From Lysobacter sp. KIS68-7 (GTDB lineage: Bacteria > Pseudomonadota > Gammaproteobacteria > Xanthomonadales > Xanthomonadaceae), in contig NZ_CP089925.1 of the NCBI RefSeq assembly GCF_021284745.1, positions 2,789,001 to 2,853,000 on the forward strand: DNA of 64,000 bases. Direction: 5' to 3'. A model generated the notes under the pieces. The model had not been told where the DNA came from. It ran no database searches and saw nothing but the letters and a program-made list of their open reading frames with translations. This document shows positions 9,367-21,983 of this stretch, piece by piece. The position numbers and the translations under genes were made by a program. Position 1 is the stretch's first letter. Each line of letters starts with the position of its first letter.

Positions 9367-9453
9367 GCCGGAATGGCGGAATCGGTAGACGCAGCGGACT
9401 CAAAATCCGCCGCCCTTAAAAGCGTGTGGGTTCGAGTCCCACTTCCGGCACCA
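9367..9453 (+). tRNA. tRNA-Leu, anticodon CAA
   Basis: This is an 87-nt class II tRNA with encoded CCA. The acceptor GCCGGAA (9367-9373) pairs with TTCCGGC (9443-9449); A9450 is the discriminator and CCA is 9451-9453. The anticodon stem GCGGA/TCCGC closes the loop CTCAAAA, giving anticodon CAA, which reads UUG. The long variable arm typical of leucine tRNAs precedes the T arm GTGGG/TTCGAGT/CCCAC. The last 16 bases form the left copy of the integration repeat, so the 3' end now visible was supplied by the inserted element. Confidence 0.96.
9438..9453 (+). repeat. attL: 16-bp integration repeat at the 3' end of tRNA-Leu
   Basis: The sequence CCCACTTCCGGCACCA covers the T-arm 3' strand, acceptor 3' strand and CCA of the tRNA. 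The same 16 bases recur at 18553-18568. Integrases of the P4 type commonly recombine at such tRNA 3' ends, so this is read as the left attachment site. Confidence 0.88.
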
Positions 9454-9460
9454 AAGCCAA

Positions 9461-9490
9461 GTTCCAGAAGGTTCCAAGAAGTTCCAGACG
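9461..9490 (+). repeat. Three tandem 10-bp repeats next to attL
   Basis: Three consecutive decamers of the form GTTCCAGAAG begin at 9461, 9471 and 9481 (GTTCCAGAAG, GTTCCAAGAA, GTTCCAGACG). They are spaced by one helical turn and lie 8 bp inside attL. Their position suits arm-type integrase or excisionase binding sites; that role is inferred. Confidence 0.7.
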
Positions 9491-9500
9491 TTCATAAAAG

Positions 9501-9522
9501 CCCCGCAAATGCGGGGTTTTTT
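9501..9522 (+). terminator. Rho-independent terminator after tRNA-Leu (element-borne copy)
   Basis: CCCCGC (9501-9506), loop AAAT and GCGGGG (9511-9516) are followed by six T. It lies inside the element, 48 bp after the tRNA, so it restores termination for the interrupted tRNA gene. Confidence 0.85.
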
Positions 9523-9563
9523 GTTTCTTGCGAGTTCGCGAGATACCATGGAGTCTCAACGCG

Positions 9564-9584
9564 GCGGGGGTAGATTTGGGGATA
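9564..9584 (+). repeat. G-rich 21-bp motif upstream of the integrase, matched at the right end of the element
   Basis: The 21-mer at 9564-9584 (GCGGGGGTA, then ATT, then GGGG and ATA) matches 18 of 21 positions of the motif at 18470-18490. A further GGGGGTACC lies at 9608-9616, just before the integrase start. Presence at both ends suggests integrase or excisionase arm sites. Confidence 0.55.
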
Positions 9585-9617
9585 TCCCCCCGCCCCGCCC
9601 CGAAGTTGGGGGTACCG

Positions 9618-10829
9618 ATGTCGACCGGGAAATTGACCGCCACAGGGATCAAAACCGCAGCGCCGGGCAAACATTTCGACGGTGGTGGGTTGCACTTGGA
9701 CGTGAAGCCAAACGGCGCGCGCTACTGGCGCCTGAAGTATCGCCACGACGGGCGCGAACGGCTGATGGCGCTCGGCGTGTTCCCCGAGGTCGCGCTTTCT
9801 GAGGCGCGACTACGCCGCGACGAAGCCCGACGCGCTATGCGGGATGGCCGCGACCCGATGGCGGAACGTCAGCGGGTCAAGATTGCCGAGCGCGCGGCAG
9901 CGACCACGTTCGGGGTCGTCGCCGACGAGTGGCTTGGCCGCCAGCGCGATGTTCTGGCCCCCGTTACCCTCGCGAAAACGGAGTGGCTGTTCGGTCTGGC
10001 GCCCGATCTAAGCGCGGTGCCGATCGCAGAACTAACTGCCCCGCGCGTGCTGGCGGCGCTGCGCAAGGTCGAAGCGCGCGGACACCTAGAAACGGCACAC
10101 CGCCTGAAAGTTAAGGTTGGGCAAGTGTGTCGATACGCGGTCGCCACCGGCCGCGCCGAGCGTGACCCGACCGCCGACCTGCGCGGCGCGCTGAAGGCGA
10201 AAGCGACGCGGAGTCGGGCGGCCATCACTGAGCCTCGCCAGGTTGCTGCACTGTTGCGCGCGTGCTGGGGGTACACCGGCCAGCCCGTCACGCTCGCCGC
10301 GCTCAAGTTGTCGGTCTACTTGTTTCAGCGGCCCGGCGAGCTGCGCGCGATGCGCTGGGAAGAATTGGACCTCGACGCGGCGCTGTGGCGACTTCCCGCC
10401 GCGCGCATGAAAATGAGGCGTGAGCATCTCGTGCCGCTGCCCCCGCAAGTAATTTCAATCTTGCGCGACTTGCACGTGCTGACCGGCGACGGTCCGTACG
10501 TCTTTCCGTCGCTGCGCGGCCACGCGCGGCCCATGTCCGAGAACACACTCAACGCGGCCCTGCGCGCGCTGGGCTTCGACGGCGATCAACACGTCGCGCA
10601 CGGATTCCGCAGCACCGCCAGCACCTTGCTCCACGAACTCGGCTGGGATAGCGCCTTGATCGAACTACAGCTCGCGCACGTGGACAAGAATCAGGTTCGC
10701 GGCATCTACAACCGTTCCCACCGCCTGCCCGAGCGGACGGGGATGATGGCTGCATGGGCCGACCACTGCGACATGCTGCGCACCGGCGGCACCGTCACAC
10801 CCATTAGGCGCAAGACGCGCCGGACATGA
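9618..10829 (+). CDS. int: Tyrosine recombinase (P4-type integrase)
   Basis: This is a 403-residue integrase with an N-terminal DUF4102 arm-binding domain (about 1-90), a SAM-like core-binding domain (about 95-190) and a C-terminal catalytic domain. The catalytic residues are visible: Arg238 (FQRPGELR), His328 and Arg331 (HGFR), His354 (LAHVD) and the nucleophile Tyr364 (GIYNR). The frame is open from 9528, but the ATG at 9618 matches the usual N-terminus (KLTATGIKTAAPGKHF) and follows a G-rich stretch. Its position beside tRNA-Leu and the att repeat implies that it inserted the element. The stop overlaps the next gene by 4 bp. Confidence 0.95.
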   Translation: MSTGKLTATGIKTAAPGKHFDGGGLHLDVKPNGARYWRLKYRHDGRERLMALGVFPEVALSEARLRRDEARRAMRDGRDPMAERQRVKIAERAAATTFGVVADEWLGRQRDVLAPVTLAKTEWLFGLAPDLSAVPIAELTAPRVLAALRKVEARGHLETAHRLKVKVGQVCRYAVATGRAERDPTADLRGALKAKATRSRAAITEPRQVAALLRACWGYTGQPVTLAALKLSVYLFQRPGELRAMRWEELDLDAALWRLPAARMKMRREHLVPLPPQVISILRDLHVLTGDGPYVFPSLRGHARPMSENTLNAALRALGFDGDQHVAHGFRSTASTLLHELGWDSALIELQLAHVDKNQVRGIYNRSHRLPERTGMMAAWADHCDMLRTGGTVTPIRRKTRRT

Positions 10830-11254
10830 AGCGCCTGCCACCGCTTTCAGAAGGGGCGAAGTTGCGCGCGCTGTATCAGGCGTTGCAGTGGCGCGCGCGC
10901 GCGCTGTTGCCGGTCGGCAGCGAAAAAGGGTATTCGACGGACGCGGAGCGGGCCGAGTGCCAGGAACTCGCAGCGGTGCTGGAACGGGAGAGCGGCCGGC
11001 GCGGCACCGCCGACGATGGGCGGGTGCTATGGGTGGTCGACGTGATGGTTGCAACCGGCATGGGACGCATGGCCGCCTGTCGGTGGGTGCTGGCCGCAAT
11101 CGACGCCCAGGACGCGGAACCGAACGCGGCGCAGATCGACGCGATCAATAGGCGACGCGTCGAGACCCTGTCGGCGAATGTGCGCAAGCACCTTGAATCG
11201 ACCACAACACTACGTTCCCAACTGCTCGGCAGAACCGAGGACCCCAACCCGTAG
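10826..11254 (+). CDS. Hypothetical protein of the integrative element
   Basis: This 142-residue protein is translated from an ATG that overlaps the integrase stop (ATGA), so it is probably coupled to integrase. I do not recognise the family. It is predicted largely helical and polar, without a signal peptide or membrane span. The middle part (VVDVMVATGMGRMAACRWVL) looks like a helical bundle or a helix-turn-helix-like segment. Its stop codon lies at the edge of the 18-bp palindrome at 11254-11271. A role in regulation or excision is possible but unsupported. Confidence 0.75.
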   Translation: MKRLPPLSEGAKLRALYQALQWRARALLPVGSEKGYSTDAERAECQELAAVLERESGRRGTADDGRVLWVVDVMVATGMGRMAACRWVLAAIDAQDAEPNAAQIDAINRRRVETLSANVRKHLESTTTLRSQLLGRTEDPNP

Positions 11255-11271
11255 GCTTAGTGCACTAAGCC
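11254..11271. promoter_or_regulatory. 18-bp perfect palindrome, candidate operator
   Basis: GGCTTAGTGCACTAAGCC is a perfect palindrome centred at 11262/11263. It starts at the last base of the preceding stop codon and lies 63 bp upstream of the alpA-like gene. There is no T-run after it, so an operator for a dimeric regulator fits better than a terminator. The regulator is not known; the AlpA-like protein is one candidate. Confidence 0.6.
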
Positions 11272-11334
11272 CACGGTTACACGGCAGGGAAAATCGGACT
11301 ATTTAGGTGGCACCCGCTCCATGAGGTGCCGCAA

Positions 11335-11622
11335 ATGTCCAGACGGACCGCCCCACGCTTACTACGTTTCCCCGAGGTCAAGCACCGTACCGGGCTGTCC
11401 CGAACTTCGCTCTTCCGCGCGGTGCGCGCCGGGCGCTTTCCCGCACCGATCCACCTTGAACTTGGCGAGCGAAGTCGCTGCGTCGCATGGCCCGAAGCCA
11501 GTGTCGACGCATGGATCGAAGCGCGCGTTGCTGCCGCTGCGTCGCCGGAGCCCCAACCTGCCGCACCCGTGAAGCGCGGCCGCGGTAGGCCGCAGAAGCA
11601 CCCGCCGCCGGTGGGGACTTGA
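11335..11622 (+). CDS. alpA: AlpA-family helix-turn-helix regulator / excisionase-like protein
   Basis: This is a 95-residue DNA-binding protein. The segment LLRFPEVKHRTGLSRTSLFR is the winged-helix N-terminus of AlpA/MerR-like proteins, followed by RAGRFPAPIHL and WPEASVDAWI, all typical of AlpA. The C-terminus ends in a basic AT-hook-like KRGRGRPQK. The start is set at the ATG at 11335, because GAGGTG at 11323-11328 gives a well-spaced ribosome site; a GTG at 11326 would add three residues. AlpA proteins often control integrase or excision in P4-type islands. It abuts the DUF3631 gene. Confidence 0.85.
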   Translation: MSRRTAPRLLRFPEVKHRTGLSRTSLFRAVRAGRFPAPIHLELGERSRCVAWPEASVDAWIEARVAAAASPEPQPAAPVKRGRGRPQKHPPPVGT

Positions 11623-11623
11623 G

Positions 11624-12907
11624 ATGGTCAGCCCAGCCGACTCAGTGACGCGCGACTGGCGCAAGGCGCTGGAAATGAAAGCGCTGATCGACGGCGACGA
11701 AGTCGTTGAGGCCGCTTGGCACGAGACCGCAGCGACCGTGCCGCCACCCACACATGCAGCGCCCGATCCATTGCGGCAAGCGACGGCGGGGGCCGAGCTG
11801 CTCGATGAGGCAGAGCAATTCGTTCGCCGCTTCTGCGCGCTCCCGACGTCCGCGGACTATGTAGCGGTCACGCTCTGGGCCGCGCATTCGCATCTTGCCC
11901 AGCACCTACACACCTCTCCGCGGCTAGCTCTGCTCAGCCCTGAGCCCGGATCGGGTAAGACACGCGTGCTGGAGGTCCTCAACCTACTGGTACGCGCTCC
12001 GATGTTCGCGTTCGGCGCGAGTGCGGCCGCCATCTTCCGCAGCATGGGCGCGGGCCCGGTGTCTTTGCTGTTCGACGAGGTCGACACGATCTTCGGCAGC
12101 ACCGGCAAGAACGACACGCACGAGGATCTTCGCGCGCTGATCAATGTCGGCTACAAGCGCGGCGCCAAGGTGCCTCGTTGCGTCGGCCCCAAGCACGACG
12201 TTCATCACTTCGACGTGTTTGCGCCGGTCGCACTTGCCGGGCTAGGCAACCTGCCCGAGACGGTGCTGTCCCGCGCGCTGATCGTGAAGATGCGCCGTCG
12301 CGCCCCGAGCGAGCCGGTCGAACCGTTCCGCGAGCGGGTGCATGAGCCGCAAGGACATGCGATCCGCGACCGCCTGGCGTTATGGGCGGAGACAGTCGGT
12401 TCTATTGTCGGGGCCGCGTACCCAGATCTGCCCCCCGGTGTAACAGACCGCGTCGCCGAGCTCTGGGAGCCGTTGATCGCGATCGCCGACGAAGTCGGCG
12501 GCGCCTGGCCGGAGCGTGCACGCGCTGCTTCCGTCGATTTTGCGGAGCGAAATGCCCAATCCGTGACCTTGGGGGTGCGTTTGCTGGCTGACATCCGGCT
12601 GGTCTTCGCCACCGCGGACTTTCTACCCACCGCCGAACTACTGGCCCGCTTGACCGGGGAGGCTTCCTACGGCCGCGACGGCGCCGGTGACGAGCTGAGT
12701 TTGAACGATGCCCCTTGGGCGGATCTGAAGGGCGCGCCGCTGGACGCCCGCGGCCTGGCACGCATGCTCCGCCGCTATGACATTGCCGCCGAGCGCACGC
12801 GCCCTGACGGCAAGAATCAGGTTCGGGGTTACCGGCGCGCGACCTTCAACGATACGTTCGCGCGCTACCTGCCCGTGAACTCACCGCCAAACTGCCCGCC
12901 CAGATAG
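11624..12907 (+). CDS. DUF3631 ATPase of the integrative element
   Basis: This 427-residue protein has a P-loop ATPase core with Walker A PEPGSGKT at 106-113 and Walker B LLFDEVD at 148-154. A C-terminal DUF3631 region follows (about 230-415, with DELSLNDAPW and LARMLRRYDI). DUF3631 proteins occur in phages and integrative elements and are often fused or linked to primase/helicase modules. Here the N-terminus is short and shows no obvious primase domain. A role in element replication or maintenance is inferred from family and context. It starts 1 bp after the alpA stop. Confidence 0.82.
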   Translation: MVSPADSVTRDWRKALEMKALIDGDEVVEAAWHETAATVPPPTHAAPDPLRQATAGAELLDEAEQFVRRFCALPTSADYVAVTLWAAHSHLAQHLHTSPRLALLSPEPGSGKTRVLEVLNLLVRAPMFAFGASAAAIFRSMGAGPVSLLFDEVDTIFGSTGKNDTHEDLRALINVGYKRGAKVPRCVGPKHDVHHFDVFAPVALAGLGNLPETVLSRALIVKMRRRAPSEPVEPFRERVHEPQGHAIRDRLALWAETVGSIVGAAYPDLPPGVTDRVAELWEPLIAIADEVGGAWPERARAASVDFAERNAQSVTLGVRLLADIRLVFATADFLPTAELLARLTGEASYGRDGAGDELSLNDAPWADLKGAPLDARGLARMLRRYDIAAERTRPDGKNQVRGYRRATFNDTFARYLPVNSPPNCPPR

Positions 12908-12914
12908 CCCGCTG

Positions 12915-13205
12915 GTGGGATTGACAGCCGTGCGTCGCTACGCATCATTTGCGCCGTCCGACAGTCGCTCGATCGACATGGGCTCTCAGCGAATCACGCC
13001 GCCGAAGATGCGCGAAATGCCATTGCTCACACATGGCGCCTTCTCATTGTTCGTCCTGAAAGTCCCAAACGAATATCGAAGCACCGAGATCACCGTGGGC
13101 TTCGTGGTGCGCGGCCCAAACAACTACTCCACTCAATTCGGTTACACCCAGTACGTCGAAGCCCAGGCGCATTTGCACGAGAAGGCCTGCGCCAGTCCTG
13201 ACTGA
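12915..13205 (+). CDS. Small hypothetical protein (uncertain start)
   Basis: This is an open frame of up to 96 residues just after the DUF3631 gene. The first start is a GTG at 12915; GTG 12930 and ATG 12978 are alternatives, and none has a clear ribosome site. The C-terminal part (FSLFVLKVPNEYRSTEI, then GFVVRGPNNY) alternates strands and polar turns and looks like a real small domain. I do not recognise it. It could be a minor element gene or non-coding. Confidence 0.4.
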   Translation: MGLTAVRRYASFAPSDSRSIDMGSQRITPPKMREMPLLTHGAFSLFVLKVPNEYRSTEITVGFVVRGPNNYSTQFGYTQYVEAQAHLHEKACASPD

Positions 13206-13564
13206 CTCCCCCGCGGACACGTCACATTCGTCACAAGCGTCACCCGCCGAAGGTGAATTGGCCGGCCGCGACACTTGTGACGCTTGTGACGGCAATCCGG
13301 CCCCCAAGGGGTGCTCTGGGTGAGCTGCGAAACCGTGCGCGGACTGTCGCGCATCCGCTCACGCGTCGGATGCGGTTCGCGCGGGCTGACAACGTGACCT
13401 TGCCGCCGCTGGGACGGACATACCGGGGGGGGGATAGAAATAAAACCTGCGGGTCGACGCCAACCGGCCGCCCACAGCCGTTCAAATAAAACCCAACCGC
13501 TCAGTAGGCAATGACGCGACCCGTTGCCGCCGTTTACCTGCCCCCGGCAACGCAAACGTTGAAA
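13206..13564. other. 359-bp non-coding interval of the element
   Basis: The stretch separates the left-hand plus-strand genes from the minus-strand mod/res pair. It holds the iteron-like cluster at 13220-13291 and a run of nine G at 13425-13433. Short open frames here lack ribosome sites and recognisable protein character. I see no clear terminator hairpin after res. Confidence 0.6.
13220..13291. repeat. Iteron-like cluster of CGTCACA units in direct and inverted orientation
   Basis: Three consecutive 9-bp units start with CGTCAC (13220, 13229, 13238). They are followed 27 bp later by two inverted units CTTGTGACG (13274-13282, 13283-13291). A perfect 15-bp inverted repeat, CGTCACAAGCGTCAC at 13229-13243 against its complement at 13277-13291, spans the cluster. 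The arrangement resembles replication-origin iterons or a multi-site operator. Confidence 0.72.
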
Positions 13565-16249
13565 CTACTTCTCCTGCGGTTCGGCCGCATTGGCAAGCAG
13601 CCAATCCCACCCGGGACCGAGGTTATCCCAGTCGAGCACCAAGCCTAGGCTCCCGTCGTCGTTCACAACACGCAGGGTCTCGTTATCGCGGGTCACAAAC
13701 ATGACCTTGCCATACACCTTCGGAACCCGCCGTGATTTGCGCGCCGCATCCTTGGTGCTCTCCTTGGTCTCAACCAGGCGCGTCATGATTTTCTGGCCTG
13801 CGGGATATTCCAAACAGACTACGAAGTCAGGATAGAAATAGTTGCTGTGGTCGCCCCGAACGAGGCGCACGGACCACGGCTTTCGATCAGGATTGCGGTG
13901 CCACCATAAGACAGCATCGTCACGATCGAGGGCCTCAATGAACTCTCGCTCTTCTTGGTTGAGCGCTGTTGATCCGTCGTAACTGCCAACCCGAAGCACG
14001 CCGCCGGCGTGCGCGAGAGTGCTGGCCGCCAATGCGGTTTGCGCATCGATGCCGAGGTCATTACGGTCCGCCTCGACTCGATCCTTTAGCGGGGGAACTG
14101 CACCGTATAGGTTTCGCCGTGAGGGCTTCAGTGCATGCGCCAACGGATACAACATGGCATCAGGAAGGGGGCCGGCATCGTTGACGGTGGCGAAGCGCGC
14201 GACCATTTCCTGCATAACCTCAGCGAGGACTTGGGACTGACGGCGGATCACCCAACAAGCCGCATCACGCGCGAGCCGATCCAATTGTTTTTCGTCGCGC
14301 GTGGCGTCCCCTACATCGACGGGTGGCTGCTCCACGTGTGGTCGCAAGCGGTTGGCGAGGGTGCCAATGATGATTCGCACGTCTGCATCTTCAACCTGCG
14401 GCATCCTACGAAGGCAGGCTTCTGCCTCGCGCAGAAGTGCGCCTCGATCGGTAATGATGGTCACCTCGGCTTCCCGACGCGAGCCCACCGTCAGCTCTGT
14501 GTGAACTTCTCTTTCGCGAAGAAGGTTATATGCAGCCCTGGTGGCAACCGCGACGAGCGAGTCGTCAATGGGCAAGTGCGTTGACGCTTGTCGCGAAACC
14601 TCACCCATGTTTGCGAGGATTGGCCGCGTCTCTTGTTGGAGGACACCCGGCGCCATGCGCAGACCGTTGTTGCGCGGATAGGCTTTGAGACCCTTTGCCT
14701 GAAGGTAATCCAGCAACGCCTTTTCATCGATCGGCGGAGAAGTTGGAGACGAGCCCTCCGTCGCAACGCGATCCCGAGCCATCAGCGTCGAACCGAAATC
14801 GTCCGCGACATCACCGGCACCTACACCGAACAAGTTGCCTTGATCACGTGAATCACTCGTCGCGAACGCCTCAGACTGTGGCAATGGCTCCCAAGCGGAC
14901 GGCGGTTGCTCGTACGTGATCGGAAACTGCGGCGTGATGCGGTTCGTATAGACCGCCGCGCCGGAAAGAGTTCTGCGCTCGACCATGTGCTCGGTTTGGC
15001 CTTCCAATTGGCTTTTGACCGCCAAGCTCGCGTTCACCGCCGACTGAAAGCCTTGTTGCGCTTCGGCGTCGGCGAGGTAGACGTAGGCGGTATCCAACTC
15101 TGGCGGGATTGGGGTCGGTTTCGGATACGCCATCCTGATTGCGGCAGCGACTCGCATAACTCGACCTATGAACTGCATCGCGAAGTCAGCGTCATTGACC
15201 GGTTTCGTGGACGCAAGGACGAACGCCCGCGGCGCGTCGAACCCCGTACCCGCCGACTGTTTGAAAATCAATACTTCCTTCGAATGGTCGTTCGCAATCG
15301 CCGCCATTAGGACGGGGTCAGGGTCGTCGGCCGAGTGCGTGCCAATTACATTCGCGGGAACTCGGCAAAGCTGCACAAGTTCACGTTGAGCATCTTCGAC
15401 AGTTTTTTCACCATTCGCTACTTGCACCAGCAAAAGAGGCGTGAGGTCGATGCCCGCTTCACGCAGCCGATGCTTCAGCCATTGGTGCTGAAGCCAGGCC
15501 TGACGCAGCACGGTGCGTTTGAGGTCCGCGATTGAAGAAACGCTGTGGCGAAGATCGTAAACAACTGCCTCGACGTAGCGCTTGTTAAGACGCGCTTCTA
15601 CAACTTGAGCCCGGCTGACAACGAAAACCTCCCGAGTCCCCTTACCCGCCTTTGCGAAGAATTCATCCAGCCGCGCATCTTTTGGGGTGGCGGTGGCCAT
15701 AACGAGGTAATCAGGCTCCAACCAATACGCGAACTGGCCGAACTCCGTTCCATGGTCTAGACCGATATGCGCCTCGTCCACTACCAATCCGATTTTCAAT
15801 CCACGCGCACGCGCCAGCGCGACAAATGCCTCCATCGTCGTTCTTTCGTCGTCTGCGTCGTTGGCGTATCCGGCGCGCCGGTCCTTCGCGCGCGCTACTG
15901 CCTGCGCAGTTGATAGCAAGACCGTGCCTGCGGCGGGCTCTTGATTGCGACCGCGCGTCAGCAATGTCGGCGCAAGCCCCGGCGCGTTGGCCAACAACGA
16001 GTCTTCGGTTTGATGCACAAGGTTGACAAACGGCACAAACCACAGCCAGATCGTTGGGCTTGCAGCCGACACTTTGTCGAGCACGCCAGCCAACATGAAG
16101 GTCTTGCCAGAGCCCGTGGGCGCCCTCAGAAGGCAAGGAGGTGAAGGCTGACGCAGTAGAGCGGCAGACATGTTGTCGATGATCGCGCGCTGGAACCCAA
16201 CCGGCACCAACGCGTCGGACTGCGCCGTTGTGATGCTGAGCGCGCTCAT
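13565..16249 (-). CDS. res: Type III restriction enzyme, Res subunit
   Basis: This is an 894-residue SF2-type translocase/nuclease. Walker A RAPTGSGKT lies at 42-50 and the DEAH box (VVDEAH) at 158-161. Helicase motifs continue to about 380, including the IGRVMR-type motif VI. A C-terminal PD-(D/E)xK nuclease is visible as YPDF (Pro807-Asp808) with ETK at 827-829. Together with Mod it would form an ATP-dependent restriction complex needing two inversely oriented sites. The start overlaps the mod stop by 4 bp, so the subunits are co-translated. All key motifs are intact, which suggests an active enzyme. Confidence 0.94.
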   Translation of the reverse strand: MSALSITTAQSDALVPVGFQRAIIDNMSAALLRQPSPPCLLRAPTGSGKTFMLAGVLDKVSAASPTIWLWFVPFVNLVHQTEDSLLANAPGLAPTLLTRGRNQEPAAGTVLLSTAQAVARAKDRRAGYANDADDERTTMEAFVALARARGLKIGLVVDEAHIGLDHGTEFGQFAYWLEPDYLVMATATPKDARLDEFFAKAGKGTREVFVVSRAQVVEARLNKRYVEAVVYDLRHSVSSIADLKRTVLRQAWLQHQWLKHRLREAGIDLTPLLLVQVANGEKTVEDAQRELVQLCRVPANVIGTHSADDPDPVLMAAIANDHSKEVLIFKQSAGTGFDAPRAFVLASTKPVNDADFAMQFIGRVMRVAAAIRMAYPKPTPIPPELDTAYVYLADAEAQQGFQSAVNASLAVKSQLEGQTEHMVERRTLSGAAVYTNRITPQFPITYEQPPSAWEPLPQSEAFATSDSRDQGNLFGVGAGDVADDFGSTLMARDRVATEGSSPTSPPIDEKALLDYLQAKGLKAYPRNNGLRMAPGVLQQETRPILANMGEVSRQASTHLPIDDSLVAVATRAAYNLLREREVHTELTVGSRREAEVTIITDRGALLREAEACLRRMPQVEDADVRIIIGTLANRLRPHVEQPPVDVGDATRDEKQLDRLARDAACWVIRRQSQVLAEVMQEMVARFATVNDAGPLPDAMLYPLAHALKPSRRNLYGAVPPLKDRVEADRNDLGIDAQTALAASTLAHAGGVLRVGSYDGSTALNQEEREFIEALDRDDAVLWWHRNPDRKPWSVRLVRGDHSNYFYPDFVVCLEYPAGQKIMTRLVETKESTKDAARKSRRVPKVYGKVMFVTRDNETLRVVNDDGSLGLVLDWDNLGPGWDWLLANAAEPQEK

Positions 16250-18198
16250 GCCTTACCTCCAGCCTGGCCTTGACGCAACGCATCGTAGATTCCGTAGCAC
16301 TCAGCATCGGTGCCTCGATCCGCCAACACTTCAGCCAAGGAATCCGGCCGCTCGGTGTAAACGGCGATTCGGGCAACGCCATGCACGTTTGACCAACCCG
16401 TCAGTGTGGCAATCGACTCCGCACTAACCTCGTTGCACAACAGGATGTCGCAGTCACCCGCGCGTGCGATGCGTCTAACCGGCATAGCTTCGGCATCCGC
16501 GGGCACCGTTTGCGTTAGCCTGAGGCTCAAAAGCGCGGTTACGTGTTCGGGAGTTGTCTCAAAGGGGATGTCAGCCGGCGCGACCCGGTCAAGCTGGACA
16601 TAAGCGAATTCGCCGCCCTGCTCCACCGTGAAACCCGGCTCACCGGCCAACCCAGAACTGATCCTGCGCACGCGTTCGGCGCACACGTCGCGACACAAAT
16701 TTTTGTCGGGCTCCTTGCTAGTAGCCTCGGTACTAGCGCAAAGAATGAAACGCCGCTTCCCATTGTCTTCGGAATTCAGTTCTAAAACCGCATGAGCCGT
16801 AGTTCCGGAACCTGCAAAGAAGTCGAGGACCACATCGGTTGGCCGCATCGATTGGGCCAACAGGCCCTTGATGAGCGACAACGGCTTCGGATAAGGGAAG
16901 TCCTTGTTGCCCAGAATCTGACTGAGCATCGCTGTGCCTTCGGACGTTCCGCCGGTAACGAGCTGCACGACGTCGTCGAGACCCTCATCATCCCGGGTTG
17001 GCTCTGCGGCCGATTGCAGCCAGGACGACAACGGGTTGGCATCGCGCTTAAGGCTTTCCCTGAAGCGCTTGTAGCGGGGGCGCCCGTAACCGAGTTTCCG
17101 TCCGACCCAAACGTCAATTGGTTCAATGTAGGTGAGTAGGCGGGCGACCTTCTCATCCTTGGGGGCCAGCTTTTCAAGGGCTTTTATTTGGGTGTAGATG
17201 CGCAACTCCTTCGGCGCCGTGCCTGCTTTAATTGCAGCCATCAACGCCTCCTTGCTCTCGTACACCACGACGTCTTCGTTCGCAGGCCAGAGAATCCGCT
17301 CCTCTTGAATGATGGTTTCAATCGGATCAGCCTGGAGCTTCTTTTTCTTCAGCGGGCGGGTCTTGGACGAGAAGCGCCACACGGTGTCGGGGTCGCACAA
17401 GTACCAAGTATCTGTTGCCGGATTTCGGATTGGGTAATAGGCCTCGGGCCGCTGTTTTGCATTTTTTGACTGAATCAACATTTGATTGCCCCACGGCCCG
17501 CGGGGATCATTGTCGGGGTTGGTGTACTTCGTTTCGTCGCGGGCATTGCCAACGAACTCGAAACCGGGATTGCAGTACACGAGCACATGCTCATGGTCGC
17601 CACTAAAACCATTTGTAGCGTCCATCGACCCTTGGCGCGTACGCCAAACAAGGCTCCCAAGTCGTCGCCCCGGAAACACCTCGTCCATCAGCAACTCTAG
17701 ACGCGCGCGGTTGTCATCGTTGATTGACACCAAGATCACGCCATCAGGCGCGAGCAGGTCACGGGCCAACATCAGCCGTTGATACAGCCATTCCAACCAT
17801 TGCGAATGCCGCCAGCGATCTGTCTTACTGACGAAGCGATCGTTGTAGACCCAGTCCTTGTTACCTGTGTTGTACGGTGGGTCGATATAGATCACGCGGA
17901 TACGCCCGGTGTGCGTCGACTTCAGCAGCCGCAGCGCGTCGAAGTTGTCGCCCTCAATGACGAGATTGTGGTGACAGGCGTCGGCAGACATCCCTTGCGG
18001 ACGCAGACTCCACGCGGGCACTTGTCTCGGCAAGACGATGTCGGCATTAAGGGCGGCATCGTGGGCAATTAGGTCACGTTCCCAAGTCAGCCCCAGCCTG
18101 CGTTTCGTAAGGTGCTCAACAAGTAGGCGTCTCAGCTCCGGGGCGGACAGGCCATCCAAGCGAGAAAGCAGGGTCGTAGGGCTGGAAGCTTCGGTCAT
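16246..18198 (-). CDS. mod: Type III restriction-modification methyltransferase, Mod subunit
   Basis: This is a 650-residue adenine-N6 methyltransferase of the beta class. The catalytic DPPYNTG (106-112) comes before the AdoMet-binding FAGSG motif (VLDFFAGSGTT, near residue 470). The region between them holds the target recognition domain. The start is placed at the ATG at 18198 because the sequence from there (LLSRLDGLSAPELRRLLVEHL) has the usual Mod N-terminus. The frame is open to 18465, but that extension is low-complexity and contains a C7 tract. Mod provides specificity and methylation for the complex with Res and can protect DNA alone. Confidence 0.93.
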   Translation of the reverse strand: MTEASSPTTLLSRLDGLSAPELRRLLVEHLTKRRLGLTWERDLIAHDAALNADIVLPRQVPAWSLRPQGMSADACHHNLVIEGDNFDALRLLKSTHTGRIRVIYIDPPYNTGNKDWVYNDRFVSKTDRWRHSQWLEWLYQRLMLARDLLAPDGVILVSINDDNRARLELLMDEVFPGRRLGSLVWRTRQGSMDATNGFSGDHEHVLVYCNPGFEFVGNARDETKYTNPDNDPRGPWGNQMLIQSKNAKQRPEAYYPIRNPATDTWYLCDPDTVWRFSSKTRPLKKKKLQADPIETIIQEERILWPANEDVVVYESKEALMAAIKAGTAPKELRIYTQIKALEKLAPKDEKVARLLTYIEPIDVWVGRKLGYGRPRYKRFRESLKRDANPLSSWLQSAAEPTRDDEGLDDVVQLVTGGTSEGTAMLSQILGNKDFPYPKPLSLIKGLLAQSMRPTDVVLDFFAGSGTTAHAVLELNSEDNGKRRFILCASTEATSKEPDKNLCRDVCAERVRRISSGLAGEPGFTVEQGGEFAYVQLDRVAPADIPFETTPEHVTALLSLRLTQTVPADAEAMPVRRIARAGDCDILLCNEVSAESIATLTGWSNVHGVARIAVYTERPDSLAEVLADRGTDAECYGIYDALRQGQAGGKA

Positions 18199-18469
18199 GT
18201 AGCGGCTCGCGGCGCCAGGACCGAAAGGGTCCAGCGCAAGGGAAATGGGTTGCCCGGGAGTGTAGAGTTCGTCGTCCTCCGGGAACAGCGCGAGGGGCCT
18301 CCGCCGCCCGAACGCAAAGGCGCGCGCGCCCCCCCTGAAGCGCCTGGGTGGGCGGCGCGGCGGGGGTGGCGTGCGCGACGGGCACCGCTTAAGCCCGCGT
18401 TGTGGTCTCACAATTTGCCGGCCGCGGAGCGTTGATTGGCCCTGCCAACGATCATCCCCCCGCAACGAC

Positions 18470-18490
18470 GCGGGGGTACATTCGGGGGTA
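18470..18490 (+). repeat. G-rich 21-bp motif near attR, matching the left end
   Basis: It carries two GGGGGTA cores 12 bp apart (18472 and 18484) and matches the motif at 9564-9584 at 18 of 21 positions. A nearby ATCCCCCCGC (18454-18463) also recurs on the left at 9584-9593. This fits a shared integrase or excisionase binding site. Confidence 0.55.
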
Positions 18491-18552
18491 CGGCAACCAG
18501 CCGATACATTGATATGTCCGGAAGATCAGCAAGTTAAGTTGCCTGTGCGGTG

Positions 18553-18568
18553 CCCACTTCCGGCACCA
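18553..18568 (+). repeat. attR: 16-bp copy of the tRNA-Leu 3' end
   Basis: Identical to 9438-9453. No tRNA body precedes it, so it is the displaced original 3' end of the chromosomal tRNA-Leu. The native tRNA terminator follows at once. Confidence 0.88.
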
Positions 18569-18573
18569 GGAAA

Positions 18574-18595
18574 CCCCGCATGCGCGGGGTTTTTT
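18574..18595 (+). terminator. Original chromosomal terminator of tRNA-Leu, displaced by the insertion
   Basis: CCCCGC (18574-18579), loop ATGC and GCGGGG (18584-18589) are followed by six T. The stem is identical to the terminator at 9501-9522; only the loop differs. Confidence 0.8.
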
Positions 18596-18620
18596 GTGGC
18601 CATCAAGCATTCGGCGAATC

Positions 18621-18968
18621 ATGAAGAAGCCACCGTTTCCGCTTGCCGCCGTTGCCATCGCCTACCTTGGCCTGGAGATCTGGCTGCTGGCGCGTGGCGC
18701 CGAGGCTGCAGTCTGGGTGCGGTTCGCGCTTTCGCTGTGGCTCGTCGTGTTCCTGCTTCGCGGAAGCAGGATCGCTGGCGGAATCTGGCTCGTGTGCAAC
18801 CTGCTGTCGGCGCTTTACACCGCGGTCGCTACGTTCCGGGTCATCCAGACCGACGTCACCGCGGCCGGACTATTTGCTGTGCTCACCGCCGCGATTCTGG
18901 CGCACTGCGTCTATCTCTTCTTCAGCCCAGCGGTCAGGCGCTTCCAGTCGCCGGCTCGTTCGCACTGA
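18621..18968 (+). CDS. Small polytopic membrane protein, unknown function
   Basis: This is a 115-residue protein with about four hydrophobic spans covering most of its length and a short basic C-terminus. The start is set at the ATG at 18621, followed by MKKPPFPLAA, a normal positive-inside N-terminus. It begins about 50 bp after attR, so it is the first chromosomal gene beyond the element. I do not recognise a family. The next gene follows after 6 bp, so the two may be co-transcribed. Confidence 0.7.
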   Translation: MKKPPFPLAAVAIAYLGLEIWLLARGAEAAVWVRFALSLWLVVFLLRGSRIAGGIWLVCNLLSALYTAVATFRVIQTDVTAAGLFAVLTAAILAHCVYLFFSPAVRRFQSPARSH

Positions 18969-18974
18969 GAAAAC

Positions 18975-19445
18975 ATGACTTCTTGCGTCTACTGCGGGGC
19001 GGAGATCGCCGTTGGGTTCTGGGACTACGCTCCCAGCGCTGTATCCGGAATCCTCTACTGTCCGAAGTGCGCCGGTCGCCATGAGATCAATCGTGCATCT
19101 CGCCTCATCGCCACAGCGACCTGGATGCTGGTCGCGCTTCTCGGCGTTGCGCTTGCCAAGATCCTTCCCGACGAACACGCCGCGCTCGTCATCCTGGCAT
19201 CTACTTTGCTTGGAATGTGCGCGGCCGCACTGGCTGGGTCACGTAGACCTGGCTTGGTCAAGGCCGCTCGTGGGTGGAAACGAAAGCGTCCCGCAATATC
19301 CGACGCGGACCGGGAGTCGATGAGGAAGCTTGGGATCGTCGACAACGGACAGTATTTCATTGTCGGCAGCATCCACTTCGACCACTTGCACGAGGCCTTG
19401 GCCTTCGCTCGAAGAAGGCAACACGTGTCGGCCATCGATCGGTAA
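18975..19445 (+). CDS. Zinc-ribbon membrane protein, unknown function
   Basis: This is a 156-residue protein. The N-terminus holds two CxxC pairs (CVYC at 4-7 and CPKC at 29-32) that look like a zinc ribbon. Two hydrophobic spans follow (about 45-62 and 68-88), then a basic soluble tail with a DNGQYFIVGSIHFDHLHEAL segment. No family is recognised. It ends 41 bp from the convergent msrA, with no clear terminator between. Confidence 0.7.
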   Translation: MTSCVYCGAEIAVGFWDYAPSAVSGILYCPKCAGRHEINRASRLIATATWMLVALLGVALAKILPDEHAALVILASTLLGMCAAALAGSRRPGLVKAARGWKRKRPAISDADRESMRKLGIVDNGQYFIVGSIHFDHLHEALAFARRRQHVSAIDR

Positions 19446-19486
19446 TGCTCAGAAGCCCGGTGCTTGAGATTGGCGACAAGTCTTCG

Positions 19487-20209
19487 TCAATTCGCAAGAA
19501 CCGGCCTCGCTCGATACAAAGTCGGGTACGTGCTCTTCAAGGCCGCCAGTTTCGGCGCGTCCCAGTAGCGGATGTACGCAGCCTCCGGGTTCAATGCCAT
19601 GTAATCCTGGTGATAGTCCTCCGCTGCATAGAACGGCTTGGCCATCGCCACCAGCGTGACGATCGGTGCGCGGAACGTTCCGGCCTTGCTGAGCTGCGCG
19701 ATGTAGGCCTTCGTGGCCTGCAACTGCGCGGGCGTCGTCGTGTAGATCGCGGAACGATACTGGGTGCCGTGGTCGGGCCCCTGGTAGTTCAACTCGGTGG
19801 GATCGTGCACGACCGAGAAGAACACGCGCATCAACTGCGCGTAGCTCACCTGCGACGGGTCGTAGGTGACCTGCACCGATTCGGCGTGGCCGGTGGTGCC
19901 CGTGCTCACGAGTTCGTAATGCGCCGTGGACGCCGCGCCGCCGATGTAACCGGACACGGCACGCTGCACGCCCTTCACGTGCTCGAACACACCTTGCACG
20001 CCCCAGAAGCAGCCGCCGGCGAACACCACGGTTTCCGGGTGCGTCGGCGCTGCGAGTTTTGTCGAACCCGTCTCGACCATCGCGGGCACCGCGACGGCCT
20101 GCGACGCTGCGATCGCAGGGTTCCTGATCGTCGACAGCCCGGCCAGCAGCAACACGACCACCCCGGCCGCCGCCGCACCCGCCACGATTTTTTCCGATGC
20201 CACTTGCAT
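19487..20209 (-). CDS. msrA: Peptide methionine-S-sulfoxide reductase MsrA, signal-anchored
   Basis: This 240-residue enzyme reduces methionine-S-sulfoxide in proteins. The active site GGCFWG places the catalytic Cys67. An N-terminal membrane segment (about 8-26) indicates export or anchoring in the periplasm, unlike the common cytoplasmic MsrA. The ATG at 20209 is chosen because the upstream frame overlaps dipZ. It lies 16 bp after dipZ and is the last gene of the msrB-dipZ-msrA operon. C-terminal residues such as DYHQDYM match the family. Confidence 0.94.
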   Translation of the reverse strand: MQVASEKIVAGAAAAGVVVLLLAGLSTIRNPAIAASQAVAVPAMVETGSTKLAAPTHPETVVFAGGCFWGVQGVFEHVKGVQRAVSGYIGGAASTAHYELVSTGTTGHAESVQVTYDPSQVSYAQLMRVFFSVVHDPTELNYQGPDHGTQYRSAIYTTTPAQLQATKAYIAQLSKAGTFRAPIVTLVAMAKPFYAAEDYHQDYMALNPEAAYIRYWDAPKLAALKSTYPTLYRARPVLAN

Positions 20210-20225
20210 CACGGACTCCTTGCGC

Positions 20226-21983
20226 TCAACCGAAAGTGAACGCGTATGCGTGCACGCCAGGATCGAGGAAGCGGATCTCGAACGTGCGTTCCTGGACGGC
20301 ACTGCGCTGCCGAACCAGTTGATAGAGGCGATGCCCGTCGACCACGCCCGCGCCGGAGGCATCGGTGTCGACGCCATGGTCGCCACCGGGCGCCTTGCCG
20401 TCGATCAGGACGCGGAAGCGGATCGGCTTCCCATCCTTGTCGGGCGCGAGCACGAGATGCAGGTCGCGCGCATGGAAGCGGTACACGATGTCGCCGTCCG
20501 CCGATGCAAGGTGCGCGTCTTCTTCGCCGACGTTCCAGTCGCCCTGCAAGGCCCAGTGATTGAGCGACATGCCTGGCGCAGCGCCGTAGCGCTTCACCGC
20601 ATCCCGTGCGAACCCGCCGGCGGAGTCGAAGTTCTCCGCACGCGCGTAGCCGATGTACGTCTCGGGTGACCTGAGCTGCGCCACGTCCGCATCGGCTTCG
20701 ATGCCCGTCGTCGTGGCCTTCGTCGCGACCATTGCGGGAAGCGCATGTCCGGCCTCGCGCAACAGCGCACGGATGATCTGCTCCGACTTGTCGTACTCGC
20801 CTTCACCGAAGTGGTGTGCGCGGATCCGCCCTTGCGCATCGATGAAGTAATGCGCCGGCCAATATTGATTGTTGAATCCGCGCCAGATCGCATATTGATT
20901 GTCGATGGCGACCGGATACGTGACGCCCAGGTCCTTGGTGGCCTTCCTGACGTTGTCCATGTCGCGCTCGAACGCGAACTCCGGCGCGTGGACACCGATC
21001 ACCACCAGGCCGGCGTCGCGATACTTGTCGGCCCACTGGCGCACGTACGGCAAGGTGCGCAGGCAGTTGATGCACGAATACGTCCAGAAATCGACCAGCA
21101 CCACCTTGCCGCGCAAGGACTCCGCCGTCAGCGGCGCGGAGTTCAACCACGCGGTCGCACCGCTCAACGCAGGCAGCGTGCCTTCCACCGGCAATGCCGT
21201 CGCATCCGTCCTGTTCGCCACCGTCATCATGGTGCCGCCCGGTTCGGCGCGCGCTTGCGGCGGCTGCAGGCGATCGACGAGGTGCTGCTCGATGCGCCCG
21301 GTGCTCGCGAGCGAGATCTTCGTGAGCACGCCCGTGTCGGCGCCCGTCGCAATGGCGACCACGGCCACCAGCATGGCCATGCCCAAGCCACGGCGCACCC
21401 ACTCACCCGCCCCGAGCGAGCGCTTCAGTGCGGCAAACACGCGGCCACCAATCAGCAACGCGATCGCAAGCGAAGTCGCGGCGCCGGCGCCGTAGGCCAG
21501 CAACAGCACGGTGGTTCCGACACTCGCGCCTTGCAACGCGGCGCCCGTGAGCACGAGGCCCAGGATCGGGCCCGCGCAAGGCGCCCACAACAAGCCGGTC
21601 GCGATGCCGAGCAGCAAGGATCCACCGAATCCCGCATGCGTGCCCTGCCCATCCACGGAGGTCGTCAGCTTTCCGCCCAACCATTGGAACGGCTTGCCGA
21701 GTTGCTGCGCCAGACCCGGCCACAACAAGGCCAGCGCGAACGCGGCCATCAGGATCAATGCGATCCAACGCCCCACGTGGTTGGCCTGCACCACCCACTG
21801 GCTGCCGACCGCGGCAAGCGTGGCGACGGCCGCGAAGGTCGTCGCCAAGCCGATGAGCAGTGGAAGACCGCTCTTCGCGAAAGGCTGGTCCGAACGTGCG
21901 AACACGAACGGAAGGACCGGCAGGATGCACGGGCTGACGATCGTCAGCGCGCCACCCAGGTAAGCGAGGACGAGCAGGAGCAT
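20226..21983 (-). CDS. dipZ: DipZ-like thiol electron carrier: CcdA/DsbD membrane domain fused to a thioredoxin domain
   Basis: This is a 585-residue fusion. Residues 1-215 form a CcdA/DsbD-type membrane domain with the two redox cysteines of that family (Cys19 in SPCILP, Cys136 in APCAGP). A periplasmic thioredoxin-like domain (about 265-410) has CINC (Cys304, Cys307). A C-terminal beta-rich domain (about 430-585) is of the kind found in DipZ proteins. The protein should carry electrons from cytoplasmic thioredoxin to periplasmic partners. Here the likely partners are MsrB upstream and MsrA downstream, 24 and 16 bp away. Confidence 0.88.
   Translation of the reverse strand: MLLLVLAYLGGALTIVSPCILPVLPFVFARSDQPFAKSGLPLLIGLATTFAAVATLAAVGSQWVVQANHVGRWIALILMAAFALALLWPGLAQQLGKPFQWLGGKLTTSVDGQGTHAGFGGSLLLGIATGLLWAPCAGPILGLVLTGAALQGASVGTTVLLLAYGAGAATSLAIALLIGGRVFAALKRSLGAGEWVRRGLGMAMLVAVVAIATGADTGVLTKISLASTGRIEQHLVDRLQPPQARAEPGGTMMTVANRTDATALPVEGTLPALSGATAWLNSAPLTAESLRGKVVLVDFWTYSCINCLRTLPYVRQWADKYRDAGLVVIGVHAPEFAFERDMDNVRKATKDLGVTYPVAIDNQYAIWRGFNNQYWPAHYFIDAQGRIRAHHFGEGEYDKSEQIIRALLREAGHALPAMVATKATTTGIEADADVAQLRSPETYIGYARAENFDSAGGFARDAVKRYGAAPGMSLNHWALQGDWNVGEEDAHLASADGDIVYRFHARDLHLVLAPDKDGKPIRFRVLIDGKAPGGDHGVDTDASGAGVVDGHRLYQLVRQRSAVQERTFEIRFLDPGVHAYAFTFG

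Follow-up and report, generated by a model that had tools for sequence, protein, structure and literature searches.

The 64-kb window analyzed here, a stretch of contig NZ_CP089925.1 from Lysobacter sp. KIS68-7, holds an island inserted at a tRNA-Leu(CAA) gene. We favor, with moderate confidence, the hypothesis that this is a phage-satellite-like element without a capsid gene, one that integrates and probably also excises, replicates through a DUF3631 protein and its iterons, leaves the cell with a helper phage, and carries a type III restriction-modification (RM) system as cargo. We also consider it reasonably probable that the DUF3631 proteins form a family of MCM-like initiator helicases that load themselves and share one origin design, namely facing arrays of two or three iterons, often reading CGNNAC, which lie at the 3' end of the gene with a period of 8 or 9 bp and in which the lineage-specific NN would be read by the C-terminal domain. 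Such a family would provide one replication module for phage satellites, phages, and actinobacterial conjugative elements, combined with exchangeable transfer genes and defense cargo, and swappable for DUF3987 in otherwise close islands. What is new and interesting is how the origin is built and that this pattern spans the family; the island itself is a variant of a known sort.

The proposed origin lies behind the DUF3631 gene:

11624..12907, + strand: DUF3631 AAA+ ATPase, 427 aa, proposed replication initiator helicase (Pfam DUF3631, 5.6e-54)
13220..13291, strandless: proposed origin, a facing iteron array

In this array, which starts 313 bp past the DUF3631 stop, CGTCAC occurs three times with a 9-bp period (13220-13243) and faces two copies of GTGACG with the same period (13277-13291). 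Iterons thus appear to lie directly downstream of an AAA+ initiator gene. On a strict score for facing 7-mer triplets of any period from 6 to 15 (maximum 42), the array reaches 38. None of the other half-overlapping windows, of which 90 cover the 64 kb, scores as high (the next has 36), and neither does any of 600 shuffles of its own region (maximum 35). The "possible origin" of an initial annotation of this DNA can therefore be identified with this array, which is also the only CGNNAC array in the 64 kb.

Two sets of loci suggest that the design is not peculiar to the window. The first comprised 40 DUF3631 loci: the window, L017, L023, L024, 26 viral contigs, eight genomes of the order, and two Streptomyces plasmids. 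Within 700 bp of the gene end, 16 of these 40 score at least 38, all with a period of 9, compared with 0 of 480 shuffles (maximum 35) and 0 of 322 other windows (10 of them at 36 or 37). The iteron word differs among loci, being CGTCAC in the window, CGTAAC in L024, CGGAACC in L017, CCGCTAC in the AICE plasmids (actinomycete integrative and conjugative elements, AICEs), and CGCCACA in L053. The second set, used for validation, covered class and phylum. Of 21 genomes that had a match, 19 contributed one locus each; G972, in which stops interrupt the gene, and the genome of L162 (contig edge, no open reading frame [ORF] found) were excluded, and L164-L173, which are contigs already covered, and the extra G747 rows were left out of the counts. 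Here a relaxed rule, a 7-mer doublet facing its complement doublet with a score of at least 26 of 28, was chosen after the strict rule had failed on the same 19 loci. It holds in 13 of the 19, whereas 3 of 475 shuffles and none of 15 control windows pass; for two of the 13 (L155 and L158), the score is no higher than the top one among the 25 shuffles of that locus. All 13 arrays have a period of 8 or 9 and start between -238 and +12 from the stop. When the doublet score is raised to at least 27, 3 of 19 validation loci and 0 of 475 shuffles pass. In the first set, a score of 26 separates weakly (25/40 loci, 26/1000 shuffles, 21/325 windows), whereas 27 separates (21/40, 1/1000, and 2/325), with a period of 9 in 16 loci and of 8 in five. 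Among the 15 period-8 loci (10 validation loci at 26 or more and the five first-set loci at 27 or more), the gap between the arms measures 97-106 bp in 11.

The CGNNAC pattern, which was set after both sets were known, is found in facing arrays at 8 of 19 validation loci (0/760 shuffles, 0/15 windows) and 12 of 40 first-set loci (5/1600 shuffles, 0/325 windows), for a total of 20/59 loci against 5/2360 shuffles and 0/340 windows. Facing 9-bp iteron arrays lie at the 3' end of the DUF3631 gene in both Streptomyces plasmids examined. Repeats have reportedly been noted at the origin of pMEA300, so the array may be partly known for that element. Taken together, the window array looks like a real origin and its design looks general among DUF3631 loci.

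Three further observations concern these arrays. An apparently far-off array in L058 is explained by a second DUF3631 gene that ends there (L058:12454-13944; hmmsearch 1.1e-117) and has its own facing array at its 3' end. In L158 there are two facing CGNNAC array pairs, one at -396 and one at -198 relative to the DUF3631 stop, and the gap is 99 bp in both. The residue after a GY motif in the C-terminal domain (window residues ~298-420) is Y in 7 of the 8 rows with T as the second N, compared with 1 of the remaining 18. Since the words were assigned by hand and kinship was not removed in this comparison, a link between the NN pair and this residue is a lead only.

The predicted structure of the DUF3631 protein points in the same direction. 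The model, built from an alignment of 22 proteins, has a mean predicted local distance difference test score (pLDDT) of 84.0 and a predicted TM-score (pTM) of 0.72. Among the 50 PDB matches listed, 46 come from MCM or MCM-containing entries and the other four from ORC/Cdc6 and RuvB, with E-values of 3.8e-7 to 4.1e-5 and identities of 10-16%. Many of the named matches among viral models are primases or helicases. On sequence alone, no solved structure matched the protein at E ≤1. Based on the model, DUF3631/RepAM looks like an initiator helicase resembling Rep of the Staphylococcus aureus pathogenicity islands (SaPIs) rather than a rolling-circle initiator. SaPI Rep is described as acting apparently in the form of two hexamers and as recognizing, through its C-terminal domain, iterons that immediately follow its gene (PMC7581432). 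In the literature searched, DUF3631 (PF12307) was met only as the RepAM protein of AICEs, in PMC3218068, where RepAM is predicted to be a rolling-circle initiator. It could accordingly be argued that DUF3631/RepAM nicks a pC194-like site, as predicted for pMEA300, and that the facing iterons serve self-regulation; PICMIs (phage-inducible chromosomal minimalist islands) are likewise described as replicating by rolling circle (PMC10803314). We regard this as improbable given the Walker A/B ATPase with an MCM-like fold in the model, and given an array at the gene's 3' end whose place and two-armed layout recur while the word changes.

The ends of the island are well marked in the sequence:

9367..9453, + strand: tRNA-Leu(CAA), the attachment gene (ARAGORN; 100% identical at the orthologous place in G001-G004)
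9438..9453, + strand: left 16-bp direct repeat, attL core, which is the tRNA 3' end
18553..18568, + strand: right 16-bp direct repeat, attR core
9496..9521, + strand: terminator-like hairpin inside the element, 3' of the tRNA
18571-18594: counterpart terminator-like hairpin, directly outside attR
9566..9614, + strand: putative left integrase arm sites GGGGGTA (at 9566 and 9608)
18472..18490, + strand: putative right integrase arm sites GGGGGTA (at 18472 and 18484; spacing 12 bp)

The 16-mer CCCACTTCCGGCACCA occurs at these two places and has no other exact copy in the 3,251,132-bp genome, in which its reversed control pattern occurs at 0 places. The distance from repeat to repeat, 9,115 bp, gives the element length and confirms the ~9.1 kb first proposed for a block at tRNA-Leu(CAA). 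Because the left repeat copy completes the tRNA, the tRNA gene is unbroken by the insertion, and each repeat copy has a terminator-like hairpin behind it. GGGGGTA is found six times in the 64 kb against 1.48 expected, a number reached by 1 of 100 shuffles; two copies lie near the left end, two near the right end, one within the integrase gene, and one elsewhere in the window. Downstream of the tRNA, the motif stands between +113 and +167 in the window and likewise in L041, L113, L115, L116, and L124; L025 has it behind the repeat. A pair with 12-bp spacing is also found further down in L113 and L115. We infer that these are integrase arm sites.

Seven ORFs of the element were scanned against Pfam, PADLOC, and PHROG. 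Besides the DUF3631 gene these are:

9618..10829, + strand: P4-type tyrosine integrase, 403 aa from ATG (Pfam Arm-DNA-bind_3, Phage_int_M, and Phage_integrase; PHROG integrase, 1.9e-60)
10826..11254, + strand: 142-aa gene with a 4-nt overlap (ATGA) with the integrase gene (no family match above the cut-off)
11326..11622, + strand: AlpA-type excisionase/regulator, 98 aa, GTG start (Phage_AlpA, 2.6e-12; PHROG, 4.6e-11)
12915..13205, + strand: 96-aa ORF, a doubtful gene (no family match)
13565..16249, - strand: Res, type III restriction subunit, 894 aa (Pfam ResIII, 1.5e-9; PADLOC REase_III, 2.4e-9)
16246..18465, - strand: Mod, type III N6-adenine methyltransferase, with a likely start at 18198 (650 aa) (PADLOC MTase_III, 6.8e-191)

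These matches bear out most of the gene content given in the initial annotation, including the P4-type integrase, the AlpA regulator, the DUF3631 ATPase, and mod/res, with the matches of Res weaker than that of Mod. Its count of one unknown gene has to be amended; unknown ORFs are present, but there are two of them (10826-11254 and 12915-13205). Its statement that phage and conjugation genes are absent holds for the seven ORFs, in which no capsid, terminase, or other phage structural family, no conjugation family, and none of FtsK/SpoIIIE, TraB, a relaxase, or a coupling protein was matched.

The island was also compared with related loci. First, in all four genus mates found (G001-G004) the same upstream genes stand beside an identical tRNA-Leu(CAA), and the genes behind the tRNA vary. 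In G001 a terminator-like hairpin directly follows the tRNA and is followed by a gene on the opposite strand, and the site looks empty. G002 has a different island there, with an integrase ~59% identical. The right flank of the island in the window does not adjoin tRNA-Leu in the genus mates; an empty-site test by way of this flank was therefore dropped, and the empty-site reading comes from G001 alone. The genes right of attR (18594-21983) are not behind tRNA-Leu(CAA) in the genus mates, and in G004 the distance between the tRNA and a homolog of 18975-19445 (52% identical) is ~430 kb.

Second, other islands occupy the orthologous tRNA in another genus. L024 (genome G270) is a 10,588-bp element at tRNA-Leu(CAA), bounded by a 24-nt repeat with one mismatch, that encodes an integrase, AlpA, DUF3631, an HK97-type capsid protein (Phage_capsid, 3.1e-17), and a Schlafen/AlbA_2 protein. 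In G246, of the same genus as G270, two tandem islands follow tRNA-Leu(CAA) (C1 309153-339900; L132, L025, and L133), with two further copies of the tRNA-end repeat, between and after the islands; the 16-mer of the window is repeated there too. The integrase and AlpA of the second island (L025) are 84% and 72% identical to those of the window, and its cargo consists of CBASS-type genes (cyclic-oligonucleotide-based anti-phage signaling system; DncV-like nucleotidyltransferase, ThiF/E2, and JAB). The first 51 residues of its replication protein (L025:9705-11417) are 49% identical to the N-terminus of the window DUF3631 protein and are followed by DUF3987, which we read as an in-gene swap of the ATPase between close islands; a facing period-9 array lies just past this gene with a sub-threshold score of 35. 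Comparison at the orthologous tRNA thus shows other islands in L024, G246, and G002.

Third, a family-level search for the integrase in 395 genomes gave matches at ≤1e-120 in 22 (its own included), at 25 places, 24 of them outside its own genome; 23 of these were examined, the place in G317 being left out. The integrase gene is directly behind a Leu (CAA, UAA, or GAG) or Thr tRNA in 21 of the 23, that of L025 is behind a copy of a tRNA end, and the stretch of L118 shows no tRNA. With 22 of 23 behind a tRNA or tRNA-end copy, the same block was not seen at unrelated sites without the repeat. L077 and L023 were found through DUF3631; the former is behind tRNA-Thr and the latter shows no tRNA. The integrase of L017 has no adjoining tRNA, with a tRNA-Ser ~7 kb off. 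When the 23 loci with a tRNA before the integrase were scanned for a tRNA-end repeat of at least 14 nt, exact or with one mismatch (L017 left out), just three, the window, L024, and L123, had one within the stretch; the other 20 stretches may be longer islands, be cut by contig ends, or have degenerate repeats.

These comparisons also bear on whether the block is a fixed defense island that arrived once and is no longer mobile. DUF3631 occurs in one of the five genus genomes searched, the window's own, with no match in the four genus mates, and no closer copy was found, the nearest DUF3631 being 60% identical. One copy per genus fits a recent arrival as well, however, and the integrase, both repeats, and the AlpA and DUF3631 frames are intact. 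We therefore regard a fixed island as unlikely; the island can probably excise itself and copy from its own origin.

A transfer route is suggested by the gene content of relatives. L017, the nearest in DUF3631, has capsid (2.4e-28) and small terminase (6.2e-6) genes. L056:2370-9238, on a viral contig, has DUF3631 followed by genes that, read by eye, are those for capsid, protease, portal, terminase, and connector, and may be a capsid-forming satellite or small phage. L023 has an MmeI-like type IIG RM gene nearby, and L077, also read by eye, has neither packaging nor known defense genes. The element could instead be a stripped cousin of the actinobacterial AICEs, mobilized by conjugation with a transfer protein from another element. 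Streptomyces plasmids do combine the integrase, a helix-turn-helix (HTH) protein, and DUF3631 with a TraB or FtsK/SpoIIIE protein, and DUF3631 is listed as RepAM of the AICEs (PMC3218068). With FtsK/TraB, relaxase, and coupling protein absent from the seven ORFs scanned, and with nearer relatives bearing capsid (L017 and L024) and small terminase (L017) genes instead, we find this explanation rather unlikely. The phage route is favored because sister elements carry capsid and terminase genes and because the island resembles PICMIs and the tmRNA islands described below.

The cargo is predicted to be a type III restriction pair. Mod and Res are encoded on the - strand and their genes overlap by 4 nt. 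The motifs DPPYNTGN and FAGSGTT of type III Mod proteins are visible in Mod, which matches the Mod of 6k0w (9.6e-54) and of EcoP15I (2.5e-30) in PDB; its sequence clearly marks it as a type III methyltransferase. In the adjacent Res, Walker A, DEAH, and PD...ETK are visible, and thus the superfamily 2 (SF2) helicase motifs and PD-(D/E)XK end of a type III Res, in line with its ResIII and REase_III matches; RE_endonuc scored just 0.079, under the cut-off. Window Res appears divergent, as phmmer found no type III Res for it in PDB, and homologs on six plasmid records are 46-51% identical over 96-98% of its length. A search of viral contigs with Mod gave one locus, at 43%, and hence no close satellite copy there. 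The GC content of res-mod is 59.4%, compared with 66.3% for the part that runs from attL through the DUF3631 gene and 67.7% for DNA beyond the element, which suggests that the cargo has a different origin from the rest.

The gene overlapping the integrase gene may be an excision helper, by analogy only. The corresponding iolg of PICMIs overlaps int by 1, 4, or 13 nt, occurs in 21 of 35 subfamilies, and is required for excision of PICMI115 (PMC10803314). The window gene (10826-11254) holds the position of iolg, with the overlap ATGA at 10826-10829. The overlap is 4 nt in the window, L025, and L077 and 1 nt in L017; in L023 the gene starts 4 nt on, and L024 has none. Such a gene is thus found in four of six DUF3631/DUF3987 elements, and in 0 of 21 other loci is there an int-overlapping frame of at least 80 aa, or a DUF3631 or DUF3987-like frame within their stretches.

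We propose the following mechanism. A cue would raise AlpA, and the integrase, AlpA, and the product of the int-overlapping gene would excise the island as a circle. The DUF3631 protein would then assemble on the CGTCAC iterons of the array (13220-13291) in the form of two rings face to face, open the DNA, and start replication as SaPI Rep does. The sequence itself shows int, the int-overlapping gene, alpA, and the DUF3631 gene in one row, with the facing array next. Copies of the island would leave the cell inside helper-phage particles, a step proposed because no capsid, terminase, or conjugation gene was found in the element. Mod and Res would be exchangeable cargo, guarding the host against other phages and tying the island to it. 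Excision, replication, and phage transfer are all inferred here.

Several observations weigh against these proposals. SaPI-type origins have an AT-rich stretch between the arrays, and the gap in the window (13244-13276) is 67% GC and so is not AT-rich. Among the first-set loci, 24 of 40 miss the strict rule; strict 9-bp triplets were rejected as a rule for all DUF3631 genes, being found at 1 of 19 validation loci, and six of the 19 have no array even by the relaxed rule. The fold matches of the DUF3631 model are weak in TM-score, 0.22-0.37 on the query. GGGGGTA is missing within 400 bp in 17 of 24 tRNA rows, including L024 and L077. DUF3631 also serves conjugative elements and is thus no proof of a phage route by itself, and the capsid family PF05065 is unmatched in the host genome, so that a helper with that capsid type would come from outside.

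Of broader use is a testable answer to the questions of where the origin lies and how replication is started by DUF3631, a domain of unknown function that satellite-like islands, viral contigs, and AICEs have in common. In many loci the sequence alone reveals the origin, and its varying word invites direct tests of specificity. If true, the proposal would correct the rolling-circle prediction for RepAM and would provide a search handle for satellites without capsid or terminase. As for the island, it adds to an increasing number of small hitchhiking elements with restriction systems on board.

Among known systems, capsid-forming phage-inducible chromosomal islands (cf-PICIs) have their own capsid and packaging genes, none of which was matched in the seven ORFs. 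The DUF3631 module does occur together with capsid genes, such as HK97-capsid satellites have, in L017, L024, and, as read by eye, L056, whereas the window element has none. P4-like satellites are marked by the alpha primase-helicase, psu, sid, and delta, and no PHROG so named was found among the seven ORFs. SaPI Rep with its origin and Cch2 of the staphylococcal cassette chromosome SCCmec (PMC7581432) resemble the DUF3631 system in having an initiator helicase, iterons directly downstream, and a C-terminal domain that binds the origin. They differ from it in that the DUF3631 iteron word is often CGNNAC with an 8-9 bp period, the window gap is not AT-rich, and DUF3631 has no sequence match to solved structures.

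The RepAM-type AICEs (pMEA300; PMC3218068) share a tyrosine integrase, an HTH protein, DUF3631, and a tRNA 3' end as site, and circular Streptomyces plasmids of 13-14 kb carry int-HTH-DUF3631-primpol. In contrast, the window element has no TraB or FtsK/SpoIIIE transfer protein among its seven ORFs and no prim-pol was found in it, and the replication mode published for the AICEs differs from the one proposed here. The Vibrionaceae PICMIs (PMC10803314) come closer; they share the order int, int-overlapping gene (ATGA), alpA, replication ATPase, and variable cargo including defense genes, as well as short direct repeats and the absence of capsid genes. The window likewise combines int, alpA, and a replication gene without a capsid-remodeling gene, with DUF3631 as the replication gene in place of a DUF3987/DUF5906 primase; the G246 sibling has DUF3987. 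The site is tRNA-Leu(CAA) and not fis, next to which integration is a PICMI hallmark (same source), and the element is 9.1 kb long compared with 6-7 kb. The window element therefore fails two defining PICMI features, site and primase, and lacks the AICE transfer gene. The Pseudomonas tmRNA islands I23, I44, and I55 (PMC12595487) are larger (23-55 kb), sit at tmRNA, and have a different gene set. They also have an integrase, AlpA, and RM or defense cargo between short repeats, with no transfer genes, and I55 was shown to travel by jumbo phage. The initial reading as a minimal defense island or satellite is thus supported as the best one and made concrete by the capsid-bearing L024 and the CBASS-bearing G246 sibling, and we read the element as a capsid-less satellite that resembles PICMIs and carries type III RM cargo.

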